Positions 29,056 to 35,716 are shown, numbered from the stretch's first letter. The stretch: 45,243 nt of DNA from Sedimentisphaerales bacterium (GCA_016930635.1 JAFGGI010000003.1:1-45243); one strand, 5' to 3'. The notes: generated by a model not told the origin, from the sequence alone. Numbers and translations: made by a program.

Positions 29056-29076
29056 ATCTGAAACGTCTGTAGCGGT

Positions 29077-29170
29077 TATAGTGCCTATATCGCTTATAAT
29101 GGCTATAGTTCTTATAATTCCTATAGCACTTATAACAGCCATATAGCCTATAACAGCTATAATGCGTATG
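29077..29170 (+). repeat. 9-bp periodic TATA-N5 array
   Basis: TATA starts at 29077, 29086, 29095, 29104, 29113, 29122, 29131, (29142, shifted by two), 29149, 29158, and TATG at 29167. Thus eleven units keep a strict 9-base phase over 94 bases, with different N5 sequences. Three units read TATAAT exactly (29095, 29113, 29158). One frame reads as Tyr-x-x repeats without a start codon, another as a hydrophobic peptide. It lies between the promoter and the first pilin-like gene. Confidence 0.9.
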
Positions 29171-29262
29171 ATGTTTAGTTTAATGTAATAGGGCCTGAAC
29201 GCCTATAACACCAAATTTAATTAGTCCGTGCATGTAGACACGGGCGGAAAGTGAGGCTTGTT

Positions 29263-29820
29263 ATGAAGAGGAAGATGTTGGCTATCGTAGCTATCATGAT
29301 GATGGTTACAAGCGTTGCATCTGCAGACCTTAGTGGCGAAGCAGAAGCACACGTATTTGTTGATGTAGTCGCTAACGTATCCGTTGGTGTTCTCACATCA
29401 AACGTCGACCTGGGACAGATCCAGACAGGTTCATTCCCTGCCAATCTGGTCTTCAGAGTAGACGCTAATGTTGAGCAAGTAAAATTCACAGTGATAGCAA
29501 CCGACCTTTACAAAGGTGATGATCCTGCCAGTTTATTTACAATTCCTGTAGCAGGTGACGGTGCTGTCGTTCAACCAACAAACGCTAACCCAATTCAGGG
29601 CGGAACCAATCTGTTAGTATGGCTCGCAGGCGATGGAAGCCTCCAGCTGAATGGAATGTCTGCTACTCAGAGCGAAACAAAAGCTTATGAGAGTGGTCAG
29701 AATCAGCACTTCAGCCAGGATGTCGATGTAACAGTCGAGTACGATCAGATTGATCCTGAACTTCCCAGAGGTGAGTATAGCGGTTGGGTAAAACTGGTTT
29801 GCGAAATCGACCCAGTATAA
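29263..29820 (+). CDS. Secreted pilin-like subunit 1 of a chaperone-usher-like system
   Basis: 185 residues with a signal peptide (MKRKMLAIVAIMMMVTSVASA). The mature protein is all-beta in pattern, starting with a strand of alternating hydrophobics (AEAHVFVDVVANVSVGVL) as a donor strand would, and ending with PRGEYSGWVKLVCEIDPV, which resembles the C-terminal edge of spore-coat-U/DUF4402-type fimbrial subunits. It is a paralogue of the protein at 31710 (shared KFTVxATDLYxxxDPAS and xGxYxGxxKLVCExxP). ATG 29263 has GAGG seven bases upstream; GTG 29251 is less likely. The chaperone gene follows. Role as a surface-fibre subunit is inferred from context. Confidence 0.75.
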   Translation: MKRKMLAIVAIMMMVTSVASADLSGEAEAHVFVDVVANVSVGVLTSNVDLGQIQTGSFPANLVFRVDANVEQVKFTVIATDLYKGDDPASLFTIPVAGDGAVVQPTNANPIQGGTNLLVWLAGDGSLQLNGMSATQSETKAYESGQNQHFSQDVDVTVEYDQIDPELPRGEYSGWVKLVCEIDPV

Positions 29821-29878
29821 TTTCGTTTTAAGTTCAATGCTAACCAAAAGGTTGTTCAGGCCTTTACATTAAACGAAA
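29821..29878 (+). other. Long inverted repeat between pilin-like subunit and chaperone genes
   Basis: TTTCGTTTTAA at 29821-29831 pairs with TTAAACGAAA at 29869-29878; an inner stem AAAGG (29847-29851)/CCTTT (29861-29865) lies within. It begins directly after the subunit stop codon. There is no U-run, so it is more likely an mRNA-stabilising or attenuating structure favouring excess subunit over chaperone than a full terminator. Confidence 0.55.
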
Positions 29879-29904
29879 TAAAAGATAGTTAAGAGATATT
29901 TAAT

Positions 29905-30795
29905 ATGTTGCGAGATAAATATTTTAAGATTAAACGATCTTTTCCGGCCGTCTTTGTGATTTTCTGCCTTGTTAATATTCTTTATGCAGGCATAGGAATC
30001 AAACCTGCTTATGTCGAGCTGGAACTGGACAAAGGACAGGCTGCAGGGAAGTTTATAATCTCAAATCTCGGTGAAGAGGAAGAGCGTTTTCGTGTTAACG
30101 CCATCCATTTTACATACTCAATTGACGGCGGTTTAAGTCAAATGCCGACAGGACCGAATTCACTGGCTACATGGATACACTTCAACCCGAAAGAACTTGT
30201 GATGCCGCCAAACAGCCAAAGAGCCGTCCGTTTTGCCATTGTTCCCAGAGGAGAACTCAAACAGGGATCTGAATATTGGGCTGCAATGGAACTGGAGTCC
30301 CTGAGAACATCTGAAACCACTTCAACAGATGAAGAGTCCGGCAAATCTGTCAAACTAAGAGTAGTATCAACCATAATGGTCCCTATGTTCGGAACTGTCG
30401 GAGATGTTGTATATGAGGGAAATATAGAGGACGTAAATATTGTTACGCGTTCTGACGGTGTATTTATACACTCTATAGTTAATAATACCGGCGCCGGCAG
30501 AATAGGTGCCAAGGGAGAATATATAATTACAGACGCTTTGGGCCAGGTTGTCTACGAAGGAAAAATCGGAAAAGGTTATGTTCTCGGCGGGACAAAAAGA
30601 AGATTCCTCCACAAGATCGCAGATGAGCTGCCGGAGGGAAAATATAATGTAAAAGTTACATACAGTGCTCTGCACTTTAATGAGCCGCTTACCAGTGAAA
30701 TCGAGATCGACTGGAAGCCGCAGCAGACAGAAGTTGCATCAGATAATGCTTCCAGCAGCCTGACGGATAAATCCAGGCATTTAGCCAAAAAGTAA
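29905..30795 (+). CDS. PapD-like periplasmic fimbrial chaperone
   Basis: 296 residues with a signal peptide (about 1-28). Two Ig-like domains are visible: domain 1 (about 30-155) with GIGIKPAYVELELDKGQAAGKFIISNLGEEEERFRV and the edge strand VKLRVVSTIMVPMFGTVG, domain 2 (about 165-270) with GVFIHSIVNNTGAGRIGAKGEYI. This layout matches PapD-type chaperones that complete subunit folds by donor-strand complementation in the periplasm. The C-terminal 25 residues are Ser/Lys-rich and look disordered. It lies between two secreted subunit genes with a usher-like gene nearby. Sequence is far from the classical proteobacterial chaperones, nearer the alternate types. Confidence 0.75.
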   Translation: MLRDKYFKIKRSFPAVFVIFCLVNILYAGIGIKPAYVELELDKGQAAGKFIISNLGEEEERFRVNAIHFTYSIDGGLSQMPTGPNSLATWIHFNPKELVMPPNSQRAVRFAIVPRGELKQGSEYWAAMELESLRTSETTSTDEESGKSVKLRVVSTIMVPMFGTVGDVVYEGNIEDVNIVTRSDGVFIHSIVNNTGAGRIGAKGEYIITDALGQVVYEGKIGKGYVLGGTKRRFLHKIADELPEGKYNVKVTYSALHFNEPLTSEIEIDWKPQQTEVASDNASSSLTDKSRHLAKK

Positions 30796-30816
30796 TAAAA
30801 TCTGATAACATGCTTT

Positions 30817-30843
30817 TGAAGGCTGATTAATTAACCTTCATTT
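30817..30843 (+). terminator. Weak hairpin after the chaperone gene
   Basis: TGAAGG (30817-30822) and CCTTCA (30835-30840) form a 6-bp stem around ctgattaattaa, followed by ttt. Its position 20 bases past the chaperone stop suggests partial termination before the PEP-CTERM gene. Confidence 0.35.
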
Positions 30844-30867
30844 GCCGCTATGGAGAGAGGTGATAAT

Positions 30868-31548
30868 ATGAAGAAGCTGTGTATAATAACGCTCGTTATT
30901 TTTTTGGTCAACAGCAGTATATTTGCAAATCCAATAATTCACGTCGATGGACAAGGCTACGGCAAGAAAAAGACTTTTACTGACGGGACTATTGCCTTTG
31001 CCGGCGAACTAAAGCTGACCGCAATGAACATTCCATCTATTGCTGACGGTCAATTCATATCCTTTTGTATTGAGATTGATGAGGAGATTTCAACAGGCGC
31101 TTACTATGACGCAATCGTTAATACAGAAGCGATAGAAGGAGGAAAGGGCGGTCCCAGCCCGGACCCGCTGAATAATGAGACCGCATGGTTGTATCTTTAC
31201 TATCTGGATAATATTGCCCCGACAATGCTGCCTGCAAACTGGCTCGCGAATAATAAGATAGCTGAGGACTATGGAATGACAATATGGGCTTTGGAAAATG
31301 AAATCCATCCGGGCTATCTGAGTACTGAAGCCCAGGTGATATATAACGAAGCCCTGAATCATACCGACTGGGAAAACGATTCGGTAGAGGTTCTCAATCT
31401 TTACGCTATGGGAACTTATGACAGTAATGAGCCAATACTTCGTCAGGATGTCCTGGCAAGAAGAATCCCGGCACCGGGAGCAATCTTCCTGGCTTGTATA
31501 GGATTGGGTATGGTCAGACTCAAAAAAAAGAGATTCCTTGATATTTAA
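30868..31548 (+). CDS. Secreted PEP-CTERM-type surface protein
   Basis: 226 residues with signal peptide (MKKLCIITLVIFLVNSSIFA). The middle has a motif common in planctomycete exported proteins (SFCIEIDEEI, then NETAWLYLYYLDN). The C-terminus is a sorting tail: IPAPGA motif, a hydrophobic helix (IFLACIGLGMV) and a basic end (RLKKKR), a PEP-CTERM variant recognised by exosortase. ATG 30868 is chosen over 30850 because gaggtgat lies directly upstream. Its place within the chaperone-usher-like locus suggests a tip or base protein anchored at the surface; this is inference. It might also be an independent cargo protein. Confidence 0.8.
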   Translation: MKKLCIITLVIFLVNSSIFANPIIHVDGQGYGKKKTFTDGTIAFAGELKLTAMNIPSIADGQFISFCIEIDEEISTGAYYDAIVNTEAIEGGKGGPSPDPLNNETAWLYLYYLDNIAPTMLPANWLANNKIAEDYGMTIWALENEIHPGYLSTEAQVIYNEALNHTDWENDSVEVLNLYAMGTYDSNEPILRQDVLARRIPAPGAIFLACIGLGMVRLKKKRFLDI

Positions 31549-31644
31549 TTATATACAAAAAAAAGACCGGGATTTCCTGTTTTACAAGTTCTGCAGAATA
31601 TCTCTATGTAAAATGACTGCACTTTTCAACAATCAACCTTCCCT

Positions 31645-31672
31645 TTGACGATATATTTAATTATAGTATATC
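31645..31672 (+). promoter_or_regulatory. Possible promoter upstream of pilin-like subunit 2
   Basis: TTGACG (31645-31650), 16-base AT-rich spacer and TATATC (31667-31672), 38 bases upstream of the start codon. The close match at -35 and the AT-rich context support a separate promoter for the second subunit. Confidence 0.35.
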
Positions 31673-31709
31673 TCAACGGAATGCTGAAAAATAGCTAAAG
31701 GATTTGGCT

Positions 31710-32306
31710 ATGACAAAAGGATTGACAGTCTTAGCTATAGGTGTAATCGGTCTGGCCGCCTATACGCATGGAGATTTAAGAACAATTTCCCACCAGGCTC
31801 AAGTCCACTTAACTGCAAATGTTATCCCAAACATCTCAGTTCAGGTTATCAGTACTAACATAGCAAGTCCGGATGAAGGCAGAGTTACTCTGGAAATCAA
31901 TGGTCTGGGAGGCGGTATTGTTGAAGCAGAAGTTTTGTTCCATGTTATTGCTAATGTAGAACGAATAAAATTTACAGTGTTAGCAACAGACTTATACAGG
32001 GATGAAGATCCTGCCAGCTCGTGGAGGATACCGGTAAGAACATCACAAGGTCCTACAATCGAAGCTTCATATGCCCAGCCGACACAAGACAGCAGCAAAT
32101 CACTGGACTGGGCGCAAAATATAACTTATTCAAACGGGATGAACGCCTGGCAAAGTCACAGCCGGGAATATGCAAGTTCTCAGCCCAAAGGCACCTTTAA
32201 TCAGAACATATCGGTAAAAGTTGAGTATGAATCGACTGAGCCAACGATTCCGAGGGGAACTTACGGTGGATTCATAAAACTGGTTTGTGAAGTTGAACCA
32301 CTGTAA
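31710..32306 (+). CDS. Secreted pilin-like subunit 2 of the chaperone-usher-like system
   Basis: 198 residues with a short signal peptide (MTKGLTVLAIGVIGLAAYTHG). It is a paralogue of subunit 1 over the whole mature length: an N-terminal hydrophobic-alternating strand (AQVHLTANVIPNISVQV), the shared block ERIKFTVLATDLYRDEDPAS, and the end IPRGTYGGFIKLVCEVEPL. ATG 31710 has aaagga seven bases upstream; the TTG at 31704 would overlap that site. Its last 46 bases overlap, in the opposite direction, the end of the usher-like gene. Possibly the minor or adaptor subunit. Confidence 0.75.
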   Translation: MTKGLTVLAIGVIGLAAYTHGDLRTISHQAQVHLTANVIPNISVQVISTNIASPDEGRVTLEINGLGGGIVEAEVLFHVIANVERIKFTVLATDLYRDEDPASSWRIPVRTSQGPTIEASYAQPTQDSSKSLDWAQNITYSNGMNAWQSHSREYASSQPKGTFNQNISVKVEYESTEPTIPRGTYGGFIKLVCEVEPL

Positions 32307-35300
32307 TGTTCTTTATCATCTTCTCTGGGAGTCAAAATGCCTTTAAAGTCGCCCATCAGCAACTGCTGAAAATCTTCTTGAGGTATAACCTCAATTTTAC
32401 GTTTAGGTTCACCAAAATTACAATCCGGCGGTATTGTTTTCATATCAAGCTGTAAATTATATTCGCCGGGTCTTATATCACCGAGATAATAGCTGCCGTC
32501 GCCCGCAGTGATAGAATCGGCTACAAATTTATCTGTATTCGGGTCCGTCAGCAACACCCTGATACCGGGAATTGCCTTATAAACATCATTTGGGTCAACC
32601 GATATAACCTTTCCTGAAATTGAGATTAACGGTGTCAGACCAAGATTGACCTTGGCAAGACCCCAGCGTGAAAACTTTACAAGCTGCATGCCATGTGTAG
32701 GAGAATAAATCGCCGGCACCGTATCTATGTCCAGATATATCCGGGCTTCTTTTATATTTCTCGGCGCAGACAGGATATAATATCCATCTTTATCCGTTGT
32801 TGCTGAGTACGCCCTGCTGAGATTGACTTTTATACCCGGCACACCAGGCTCATTCGGATCAAGAATTGTGTTGGCATTGTAATCCATAAAGACCTTGCCG
32901 TGTACACCTCCAATATCACCTCGAACTCGTCTATCATTTGATGCAATCAGTCTGCCTTCATATTGTGAGAACAGATCATTCATAGTCAGATAGAGCATTG
33001 TTTCCCATTTGCCGCTTCTGAATTCGGTCTGAAGACCAAACCGGCTGCGGGCTGTATCATTCAGCAGATAGTCAACACGGTTCCTGAATATATATTTGTC
33101 CTCATGAACAGACGCTTCAAGGTCCCGTGAAAACTCTGTATGAATCCGCAGGCCGCGTTTAAACGGGATACTGACATCATGTGATAATGTTATCATTTCA
33201 TTTTCAGGCATCTCAGGCTGAAGCAGATAATGGAACGAAATACTATTCGAATTCGGCAAGGATTTCCTTACTGACAAAGACAGCTCCGGTTCTCTGGCCC
33301 GCGGAGTATCCGGCAGTTTAAGACCGGTAAACAGTGCACTGTTACCAGCCAGGTCCAGCGTATCTCCCCAGGAACATTGTCCATAGATATCAAATCCAGG
33401 CCAGGGTGATGTCCTTACCTTAATCTCCTTGAGAGTTTGTGTATTCGGGTCCCAGCTTGATTTCAACTGGTCCACAGTAAATACCACAGTTGTACGCGGC
33501 AGAATAGTAGTTCTTATACTCATACTTCTATATTTTCCTGAAGTTGTCTCATCTAAACTGCCGTCTAAGTTATTCTTTGATTTTCCTATGGTTCCTTCCA
33601 GCGTCCATTTCTTATGCGGGCTCCATCTGCCGCTAATTGCCATTGCCTGTCTGTCTGAAAGACTCAAGCTGCCGCCGTCGAAATAGTCTTTGCCCAAATT
33701 TAGATAATCAACATTAAAGCTCAGGTTAGGATAAGGCAGATATTCACCCCTTAACCTGTATGCCGTATCGTTATATGAACTGTCACCAACACCCTGACTT
33801 TTGGCTACATCGCCGGAGAAAAGCAGTCTGTCGGTGGCAAGCCAGGAAAACGAGGTGCCAAAATGCTGGCTGGAATCAGGGTATGAACGATAACCTGAAA
33901 GAGTAGATGCCCTGGAATAATGTCTGAAGAAATCTCTCTGCAGACCAACCATCGCTCCTAAGGTCAGCCTGTCGGTAACGCCGTGCAGAAACCTGCCGCC
34001 GATAAACTTGCCTATCATCTCACCAAGTTCAGGGTTATTGCTCTCGTATTGATAAAGACTGGTATCTCTTCTCGAGCCAAGTGCACCCAAATAGGCGGAT
34101 TTTCCTGCAGGAAGCAGTGACGGGCTTCCAAAAATAGCCTTTTCGATCTGTGTCTCTGTCCCGTCAAGCTCTGTAATTTTGATAGTTATCTCGTTTAGAA
34201 TACCGTTCGGCAGTCTGACATCATCAAACCGGTATGTACCTGTTCCGAGAGGTGTTTTCTGATCGGAGAAAACCTCCGCAGTATCCACAACATCGTCATT
34301 AAGCAATAATTCCACTGTTGCACCTACCGGAGCCACTCCCTCGAATACATAAGGCATATTGAAATACTTATTCAATCCGAAGTCGGATTTGTCACCCTCG
34401 AGTTCTTCTTCAGAAAAACCTATAAGGCCGTTAAACCTGAAACCTGCCAGTCGCGAATTCGGAAAAACTAATTCACCCAGTCCAAAACTGGAATCACCAA
34501 CAGCAAATTCCGCAGAGGATGAAATCTGTTTTACCCACTCAAAATAACTTAATGTAGCTACAGCCTGTTTTTTCTCCGCCCAGCGAAGACCTTCCGGGGT
34601 ATCATCCCATACGGCAGATCTCTCTGACATCTGCATTTTATACCGTCCGCCAAGCAGCTGGCCCCATAAAGTCTGCATAGGCGAAGATAAAGTCAGCGTA
34701 TGTGCCGGGTCATCTTTCTGATCAGGTCTCTGCCATCTGTAAGTCAGACCTACCTTGGATTCGAAGAAATGAATCAACGAATCACTGATCTGTGCCATCG
34801 GATGAGCCTCAGGTATATCAGTAGGAATATAAAACGTATCGATCGCAAATAATGAAGTACTTTCTTTACGTTTCCAGATGCTTAGTTTGCGGTCTAACTG
34901 AATATAATACTCATAAAGCTCATTATCCCATTTAATGTCCATATTTAAAATTTCTGACATTACTTCGGGAAGAAGATATAAATCTCGTTTCATCGTAACA
35001 ATAGAGGAGGCTTCCAGGAATAACAGGTCCCTACGCTCGGGGCCGATTTCGATATCCCTGGCCTGGAGGTCAATAACCACCCGTTGAGCACCTTCAGGAT
35101 GGAAGGTTATGAGATTATCTTCCTCTGCAAATTGTATCTGAAAGGCCCGCAGTATTCTGAATAAAGGCATAAGCCTTTGGTCCCTGCCTGTAACAATAGT
35201 GTCGAGGTCTTCAACTACTAATCGCTCGTGCACCCTTCTTCCCTTGACTCTTAATCCGACAATTTCACTCTGCCGTTCACTGCCGAAAACACTGATTTCC

Positions 35301-35716
35301 TCTTGCAGTTCCGGAACAGGTATACGGTCTATGTTGTTCATATCCTCAGCAGTTCCGAGTGATGTACTGATATCAAGTTTTCTGCGCCTGGTTTTTTTTA
35401 CTCCTCTTAAATCCAACAGGCCGAAATTAGCATTAACAGGCCGTGCCGGGTATCGCAAATCCGGTATCGATGAATTTCTGTAAATTGAATGAGGCGCAAA
35501 CAGAGACTTTTCATCGTAATACCTCCACGATTCCAGTCCCTGATGAACTTTCATTTTACATCTGAAAGGCAAATGCAAAAGCGATGGCAGTCTTTGGCTT
35601 TCACTAACAGCAGCAGAACTCGGGCAGTTGCGCATAGATGTTGCGCGCAATAAAAGAGTTGTAAAGATTGCACCAAGCAACAACAGCTTGACTAAATTGT
35701 TACGACTTACCCCCAA
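32261..35716 (-). CDS. Usher-like outer-membrane protein with C-terminal Ig/SdrD-type domains
   Basis: 1151 residues, TTG start at 35716 (ggggga upstream), signal peptide about 8-27. Residues about 200-280 carry a copper-amine-oxidase-N-like motif (DLYLLPEVMSEILNMDIKW). The middle shows usher plug features: FEGVAPVGATVELLLNDDVVD...GTGTYRFDDVRLPNGILNEITIKI, followed by about 400 residues of alternating strands with aromatic edges like a 24-strand barrel (about 520-925). The C-terminus has two carboxypeptidase-regulatory/SdrD-like folds (from about 937, GKVFMDYNANTILDPNEPGVPG; second from about 1034, ISGKVISVDPND). The final 15 residues are read through the opposite gene. It is the likely assembly pore for the subunits encoded next door. 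Confidence 0.72.
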   Translation of the reverse strand: MGVSRNNLVKLLLLGAIFTTLLLRATSMRNCPSSAAVSESQRLPSLLHLPFRCKMKVHQGLESWRYYDEKSLFAPHSIYRNSSIPDLRYPARPVNANFGLLDLRGVKKTRRRKLDISTSLGTAEDMNNIDRIPVPELQEEISVFGSERQSEIVGLRVKGRRVHERLVVEDLDTIVTGRDQRLMPLFRILRAFQIQFAEEDNLITFHPEGAQRVVIDLQARDIEIGPERRDLLFLEASSIVTMKRDLYLLPEVMSEILNMDIKWDNELYEYYIQLDRKLSIWKRKESTSLFAIDTFYIPTDIPEAHPMAQISDSLIHFFESKVGLTYRWQRPDQKDDPAHTLTLSSPMQTLWGQLLGGRYKMQMSERSAVWDDTPEGLRWAEKKQAVATLSYFEWVKQISSSAEFAVGDSSFGLGELVFPNSRLAGFRFNGLIGFSEEELEGDKSDFGLNKYFNMPYVFEGVAPVGATVELLLNDDVVDTAEVFSDQKTPLGTGTYRFDDVRLPNGILNEITIKITELDGTETQIEKAIFGSPSLLPAGKSAYLGALGSRRDTSLYQYESNNPELGEMIGKFIGGRFLHGVTDRLTLGAMVGLQRDFFRHYSRASTLSGYRSYPDSSQHFGTSFSWLATDRLLFSGDVAKSQGVGDSSYNDTAYRLRGEYLPYPNLSFNVDYLNLGKDYFDGGSLSLSDRQAMAISGRWSPHKKWTLEGTIGKSKNNLDGSLDETTSGKYRSMSIRTTILPRTTVVFTVDQLKSSWDPNTQTLKEIKVRTSPWPGFDIYGQCSWGDTLDLAGNSALFTGLKLPDTPRAREPELSLSVRKSLPNSNSISFHYLLQPEMPENEMITLSHDVSIPFKRGLRIHTEFSRDLEASVHEDKYIFRNRVDYLLNDTARSRFGLQTEFRSGKWETMLYLTMNDLFSQYEGRLIASNDRRVRGDIGGVHGKVFMDYNANTILDPNEPGVPGIKVNLSRAYSATTDKDGYYILSAPRNIKEARIYLDIDTVPAIYSPTHGMQLVKFSRWGLAKVNLGLTPLISISGKVISVDPNDVYKAIPGIRVLLTDPNTDKFVADSITAGDGSYYLGDIRPGEYNLQLDMKTIPPDCNFGEPKRKIEVIPQEDFQQLLMGDFKGILTPREDDKEHYSGSTSQTSFMNPP

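Follow-up and report, generated by a model that had tools for sequence, protein, structure and literature searches.

The stretch of DNA analysed here (the window, 45,243 nucleotides) is an entire contig (G000:C12) of a 2.45-Mb Sedimentisphaerales bacterium assembly and carries a divergent locus with the components of a chaperone-usher system. Five intact open reading frames (ORFs) were present at this locus: subunit 1 (sub1; 29263..29820, plus strand, 185 amino acids), a chaperone with two Ig domains (29905..30795, plus strand, 296 amino acids), a PEP-CTERM-like secreted protein (30850..31548, plus strand), subunit 2 (sub2; 31710..32306, plus strand, 198 amino acids), and an outer-membrane usher (32261..35716, minus strand, 1151 amino acids). 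The usher gene is convergent with that of sub2, the two overlapping by 46 bp at their 3′ ends, and sub1 has an alternative GTG start at 29251. An earlier note on this DNA had described the same five-gene cluster; all of its ORFs were found, and relatives of the subunit, chaperone and usher (together with the window's own genes, hereafter the family) were adjacent to each other in eight further loci.

Fold and domain order of the usher

Because sequence searches of the PDB gave no pilus protein for any component, we adopted fold comparison. Specifically, the usher profile retrieved SdrD only, and neither single-sequence nor profile searches with the chaperone and the subunits recovered a pilus protein. 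The AlphaFold2 (AF2) model of the usher, for which nine sequences were in the alignment (mean predicted local distance difference test score, pLDDT, 68.9), comprised a signal peptide at about residues 1-28, a poorly conserved disordered tail of about 120 residues (29-147), a small N-terminal domain (NTD, 149-273), six barrel strands (317-432), then the plug (456-529), another 18-20 or so strands of the barrel (540-919), and, at the C-terminus, a pair of small beta domains, CTD1 (about 937-1022) and CTD2 (about 1025-1128). The strand total of the modelled barrel was 24 or 26, and the order of domains was that of FimD, with six strands preceding the plug. Long tails before the NTD, often proline-rich, were also seen in the ushers of relatives.

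When the usher model was compared with the PDB by Foldseek, places 1-17 were all taken by FimD or PapC (E 2e-30 to 1e-15), with the FimD match at 2e-30 extending over 1015 columns and up to 1067 columns aligned among the matches. These were followed by SdrD and other Ig proteins at 8e-11 or weaker, and the top non-usher barrel had an E of 4e-7. Profile comparison with hhalign aligned usher residues 401-586 to FimD 258-410, that is, the plug and its flanks, at E 0.002 and a probability of 14, low because both alignments were small. Additionally, the Pfam Usher model (PF00577) matched residues 823-1001 with 25.8 bits (E 6.2e-6), short of its curated cut-off of 27.1, which is a detection threshold and not a biological trait; TcfC (PF16967) and CooC_C (PF15976) had no match in the nine family ushers. 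The family usher profile detected two archaic ushers, L076 and L077, at the plug (1e-7 and 3e-6) and in the CTDs (2e-6 and 1e-6). The former was confirmed as archaic by Pfam (Usher 1e-29, PapD_N 4e-13, SCPU 7e-30), and the latter was close to it in both usher and chaperone trees.

Judged by its model, the 1151-amino-acid protein is an usher, with an NTD, a barrel with its plug, and a pair of C-terminal domains. The usher-like barrel with C-terminal domains described in the earlier note was therefore recovered, complete with plug and with FimD and PapC as top matches, while the fusion to SdrD-like domains that it had taken as a novelty proved to be the ordinary CTD1/CTD2 position (the usher C-terminus also matches SdrD_B and CarboxypepD_reg in Pfam).

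Chaperone, subunits and the intervening secreted protein

The chaperone model (pLDDT 73.7) contained two beta-sandwich domains, in keeping with the two-Ig-domain chaperone previously proposed, and a long hairpin (122-141/148-165) at the F1-G1 position. Its Foldseek matches were led by WxLIP of Enterococcus faecium (5e-10), followed by the pilus chaperones CfaA (3e-8), CsuC (1e-7) and CupB2 (4e-7) and, at weaker rank, EcpB, FimC, PapD and Caf1M. There was no PapD Pfam match to the chaperone, no Pfam family above cut-off in the eight family chaperones scanned, and nothing useful from hhalign against the K-12 chaperones; the model had no C-terminal membrane helix.

We compared individual residues in an alignment that took in classical, archaic, ECP and WxLIP-like proteins. 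Pro95 aligned with the proline of strand D1, the sole residue invariant across the chaperone superfamily (PMC4654587), and Arg109 with an arginine that most of the aligned pilus chaperones have. Arg89, which marks archaic and alternative chaperones (PMC4654587), was absent, its aligned position being occupied by Trp125, a residue common to the family chaperone and the WxLIP-like rows. The classical carboxylate anchor, an Arg on strand A1 and a Lys on strand G1, was not seen in the alignment, which has gaps near G1. By this alignment, and with those gaps, the family chaperone appears to carry neither known carboxylate-anchor signature.

The family set of subunits comprised seventeen sequences, two of which ended at contig ends. 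Common to them were a mature N-terminal strand in which hydrophobic residues alternate and, at the C-terminus, a GxYxGxVxL strand, both present in sub1 behind a signal peptide; the N-terminal alternation tied as the strongest in the subunit and was equalled by 0.8% of shuffles. The two subunits of the window are about 38% identical and were sister rows in the tree (support 100/99), confirming the paralogy noted earlier, with sub2 the fast-evolving member (end branch 1.73). Since the tree pairs sub2 with sub1, a local duplication is a likelier source of sub2 than orthology with the second, convergent subunit of L021. In all complete loci of relatives, a homologue of sub1 was the chaperone's neighbour; a second subunit was present in most other genomes as well, as a rule on a longer branch and in some cases at a position far from the operon. 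The subunits matched no known pilin family, and SCPU (PF05229) was negative, with L076 as a positive control (7e-30). An hhalign match to classical pilins at a probability of 70 was due to the signal peptide and was gone after trimming.

The protein encoded between the chaperone and sub2 scored 12.4 bits with the PEP-CTERM model TIGR02595, below its cut-off of 16. The layout of its C-terminus (IPAPGA, a hydrophobic stretch and a basic tail) and the two exosortases in the genome favour the PEP-CTERM identity suggested in the earlier note, which thus stands on layout and falls short on score. As a trait of the system, the exosortase-sorted partner did not hold up: no relative carries a PEP-CTERM gene inside its operon, and the protein is probably outside the core machine.

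Upstream of sub1, by ~100 bp, lay an 18-bp imperfect tandem array (29070..29161; Tandem Repeats Finder) of 5.1 copies of the unit TAGCGCTTATAATAGCTA. The units are TATA-rich, and the motif occurred nowhere else in the window (0.01 expected); the array may be a regulatory region. No Rfam elements were found in the locus. Base composition gave no indication of a recent foreign origin, the cluster genes having 44-47% GC and the window 43%.

Distribution, gene order and other divergent clusters

A contiguous subunit-chaperone-usher order on one strand was found in eight loci (L019, L021, L022, L029, L031, L033, L036, and L074). The carriers were Phycisphaerae, a metagenome-assembled genome (MAG) labelled Syntrophobacterales (L031), a MAG labelled Acidobacteria (L036), and a 4.24-Mb contig (L074). 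Wrong binning is possible for the two MAGs, but L074 belongs to the phylum of L031, and the presence of the family outside Planctomycetota is supported for that reason; an exclusively planctomycete system is accordingly not supported. From the relatives' one-strand operons, which lack the PEP-CTERM gene, it follows that the convergent orientation of the usher and the insertion of a PEP-CTERM gene are peculiarities of the window genome, and the former does not define the system.

Among class-level genomes, a full-length usher was present in 5 of 298, the window's included, and it was found in none of the 12 genomes of the window's own family. The nearest carrier in the same order was G277, whose matching contig was deposited as Phycisphaerae bacterium (L030). 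A genome-wide scan yielded eight loci, of which four were identical to class-level finds; L023 consisted of an usher on a 6-kb contig without other genes of the system. Across 246 Planctomycetota genomes, the chaperone profile retrieved the window and one distant 436-amino-acid protein, and PF00577 retrieved none at 1e-5. Because the family scores below Pfam thresholds, Pfam-based surveys miss it.

We also noted several clusters of related composition. A different conserved locus occurred in five genomes from the same family as the window's: a chaperone-like protein with WxLIP domains directly adjoined a secretin, with small secreted proteins flanking the pair and no usher (L024 3266-6225, L025 7370-10260, L026 2410-5372, L027 6613-9454, and L028 5865-8726). 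The Pfam matches were to PF06030 (four proteins scanned, E from 1e-11 to 2e-5) and, for the secretin, PF00263 (E about 1e-40); this chaperone-secretin pair may constitute an export system of its own that is so far undescribed. Another divergent usher-like operon is that of L075 (7249-14074), where a chaperone (family profile 2e-26) is encoded together with four small secreted proteins and a barrel-like protein of 992 amino acids that has SdrD-like domains and, at its C-terminus, an OmpA domain. Subunit-chaperone-large-protein clusters in which the similarity to ushers was mainly C-terminal occurred in L078 (4308-8378) and L079 (1157-5943), the large protein of the latter ending in a PKD domain. 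Finally, in ten genomes from the phylum of the Acidobacteria MAG (L096-L105), proteins of 725-1066 amino acids matched the two CTDs of the usher profile (E 1e-24 to 1e-13).

Proposed assembly and place among known systems

In the phylogenetic reconstructions the family formed one clade (100/100 in the usher tree and 98/98 in the chaperone tree), apart from the K-12 classical, archaic-type and ECP rows; in the chaperone tree it joined WxLIP-like and other divergent rows (98/95). This placement suggests a separate chaperone-usher class and does not prove it, given the length of the branches and the thin sampling of archaic and alternative systems, the latter by ECP only. The claim that the locus matches no described clade is, to that extent, consistent with the trees, which set it apart from the sampled classical, archaic and ECP representatives.

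Taken together, the usher fold and domain order, the chaperone fold, the co-occurrence of three genes and the separate clade were the computed support for a divergent chaperone-usher operon, which, with good confidence, we regard as most likely building a thin surface fibre. The usher and chaperone have the structure by which the superfamily is defined, and the sequence marks of each class tested were absent. The outcomes of the checks proposed in the earlier note agree with its chaperone-usher-like locus in a planctomycete genome: the usher fold was present in the predicted structure, the chaperone was Ig-like, and gene co-occurrence in relatives was strong.

By analogy with the superfamily, the subunits would reach the periplasm by Sec export, where the two-domain chaperone would complete the incomplete Ig fold of each with its G1 strand. 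The chaperone-subunit complexes would dock at the usher NTD in the outer membrane, the plug would move aside to open the pore, and polymerisation would proceed by donor-strand exchange, in which the chaperone strand is swapped for the N-terminal strand of the next subunit. Sub1, likely the major fibre subunit, would make up most of the fibre, and sub2 would be a minor or specialised subunit, a division of labour that we infer. The resulting surface fibre may be adhesive.

Several observations weigh against this reading. The top fold match of the chaperone was WxLIP and not a pilus chaperone. Confidence in the usher and chaperone models was moderate (pLDDT 69 and 74; 8-9 sequences), and the large root-mean-square deviations follow from it. 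No two-domain tip adhesin was found. The trimmed subunit profiles showed no link to known pilins, although this comparison is uninformative because the known pilin classes, with shallow profiles, fail to detect each other as well.

Some of these points bear on other readings of the same genes. The chaperone and usher could export surface proteins that remain short oligomers or an amorphous coat, without a long fibre. Some chaperone-usher systems make capsule-like coats, and the subunits here are single-domain and number just one or two per genome, with the missing tip adhesin fitting such a coat; yet each subunit apparently keeps its own N-terminal strand, as a polymer would, and sequence cannot show fibre length. 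We consider a coat unlikely, albeit the most serious competitor. A Gram-negative equivalent of the WxL system, in which the chaperone-like protein would anchor small proteins at the cell wall or surface and the barrel would serve only for their display or export, is improbable. The WxLIP fold match, the grouping with WxLIP-like rows in the chaperone tree, the common Trp125, and weak WxLIP_PGBD matches in the chaperone relatives of L074 (0.07) and L075 (0.0012) point toward it, but none of the eight family chaperones scanned had a WxLIP Pfam match, the modelled chaperone has no C-terminal membrane helix, it is partnered by a complete usher, plug included, and Pro95 and Arg109 agree with pilus chaperones. 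That an unrelated large Ig-domain barrel lies by chance beside unrelated secreted proteins is scarcely credible: no gene passed a curated Pfam chaperone-usher cut-off, but the three genes stand together in nine loci, counting the window, that represent several lineages, and the fold matches are usher-specific.

A broader proposal, toward which we are tentative and lean slightly to doubt, is that the family represents a further major class of the superfamily beside the classical, archaic and alternative ones, present in at least one phylum besides Planctomycetota. The chaperone of such a class would use a third kind of anchor for the subunit C-terminus and would stand midway between the pilus chaperones and WxLIP, a position that would point to one shared origin for pilus assembly in Gram-negative bacteria and the WxL system of Gram-positive ones. 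All known chaperone-usher classes are placed in Proteobacteria, the archaic one in Cyanobacteria and Deinococcus-Thermus as well (PMC4654587). The literature searched, outside which many subscription papers lie, contained no description of such a system in Planctomycetota; fimbriae are often described for planctomycetes, in abstracts that leave their molecular basis unstated. The family is a distant cousin of the E. coli pilus-building machinery, overlooked by standard annotation and apart from known classes. It offers a new outgroup for the origin of pilus chaperones and the anchoring of subunit C-termini, and bears on whether WxL and chaperone-usher systems had a shared ancestor.

With the classical systems (FimC/FimD, PapD/PapC) the family shares the NTD-barrel-plug-CTD1-CTD2 order of the usher, the two-Ig chaperone and the invariant Pro; it differs in a fold-match identity of 9-12%, in lacking, by alignment, the Arg/Lys carboxylate anchor, in the long stretch of disorder ahead of the usher NTD, and in having both usher and chaperone outside the classical clade. 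The archaic (sigma, Csu-type) systems have the same subunit-chaperone-usher order, a plug and CTDs found by the family usher profile, and a Tyr-x-Leu-(Pro)-Gly-like motif that recurs in domain 2 of the family chaperone, whereas the family subunits are not SCPU, Trp125 stands at the Arg89 position, and the clade is separate. Among the alternative (alpha, CFA/I and ECP) systems, CfaA was the top pilus-chaperone fold match, but family ushers lack TcfC and CooC_C matches, Arg89 is absent, and EcpC and EcpB fell outside the clade. WxLIP, of the Gram-positive WxL cluster (DUF916/DUF3324), shares the two-Ig fold and was the top Foldseek match; unlike it, the family chaperone has no C-terminal membrane helix in its model and, in the proteins scanned, no Pfam match to the WxLIP_PGBD or HBD domains, and its partner is an usher.

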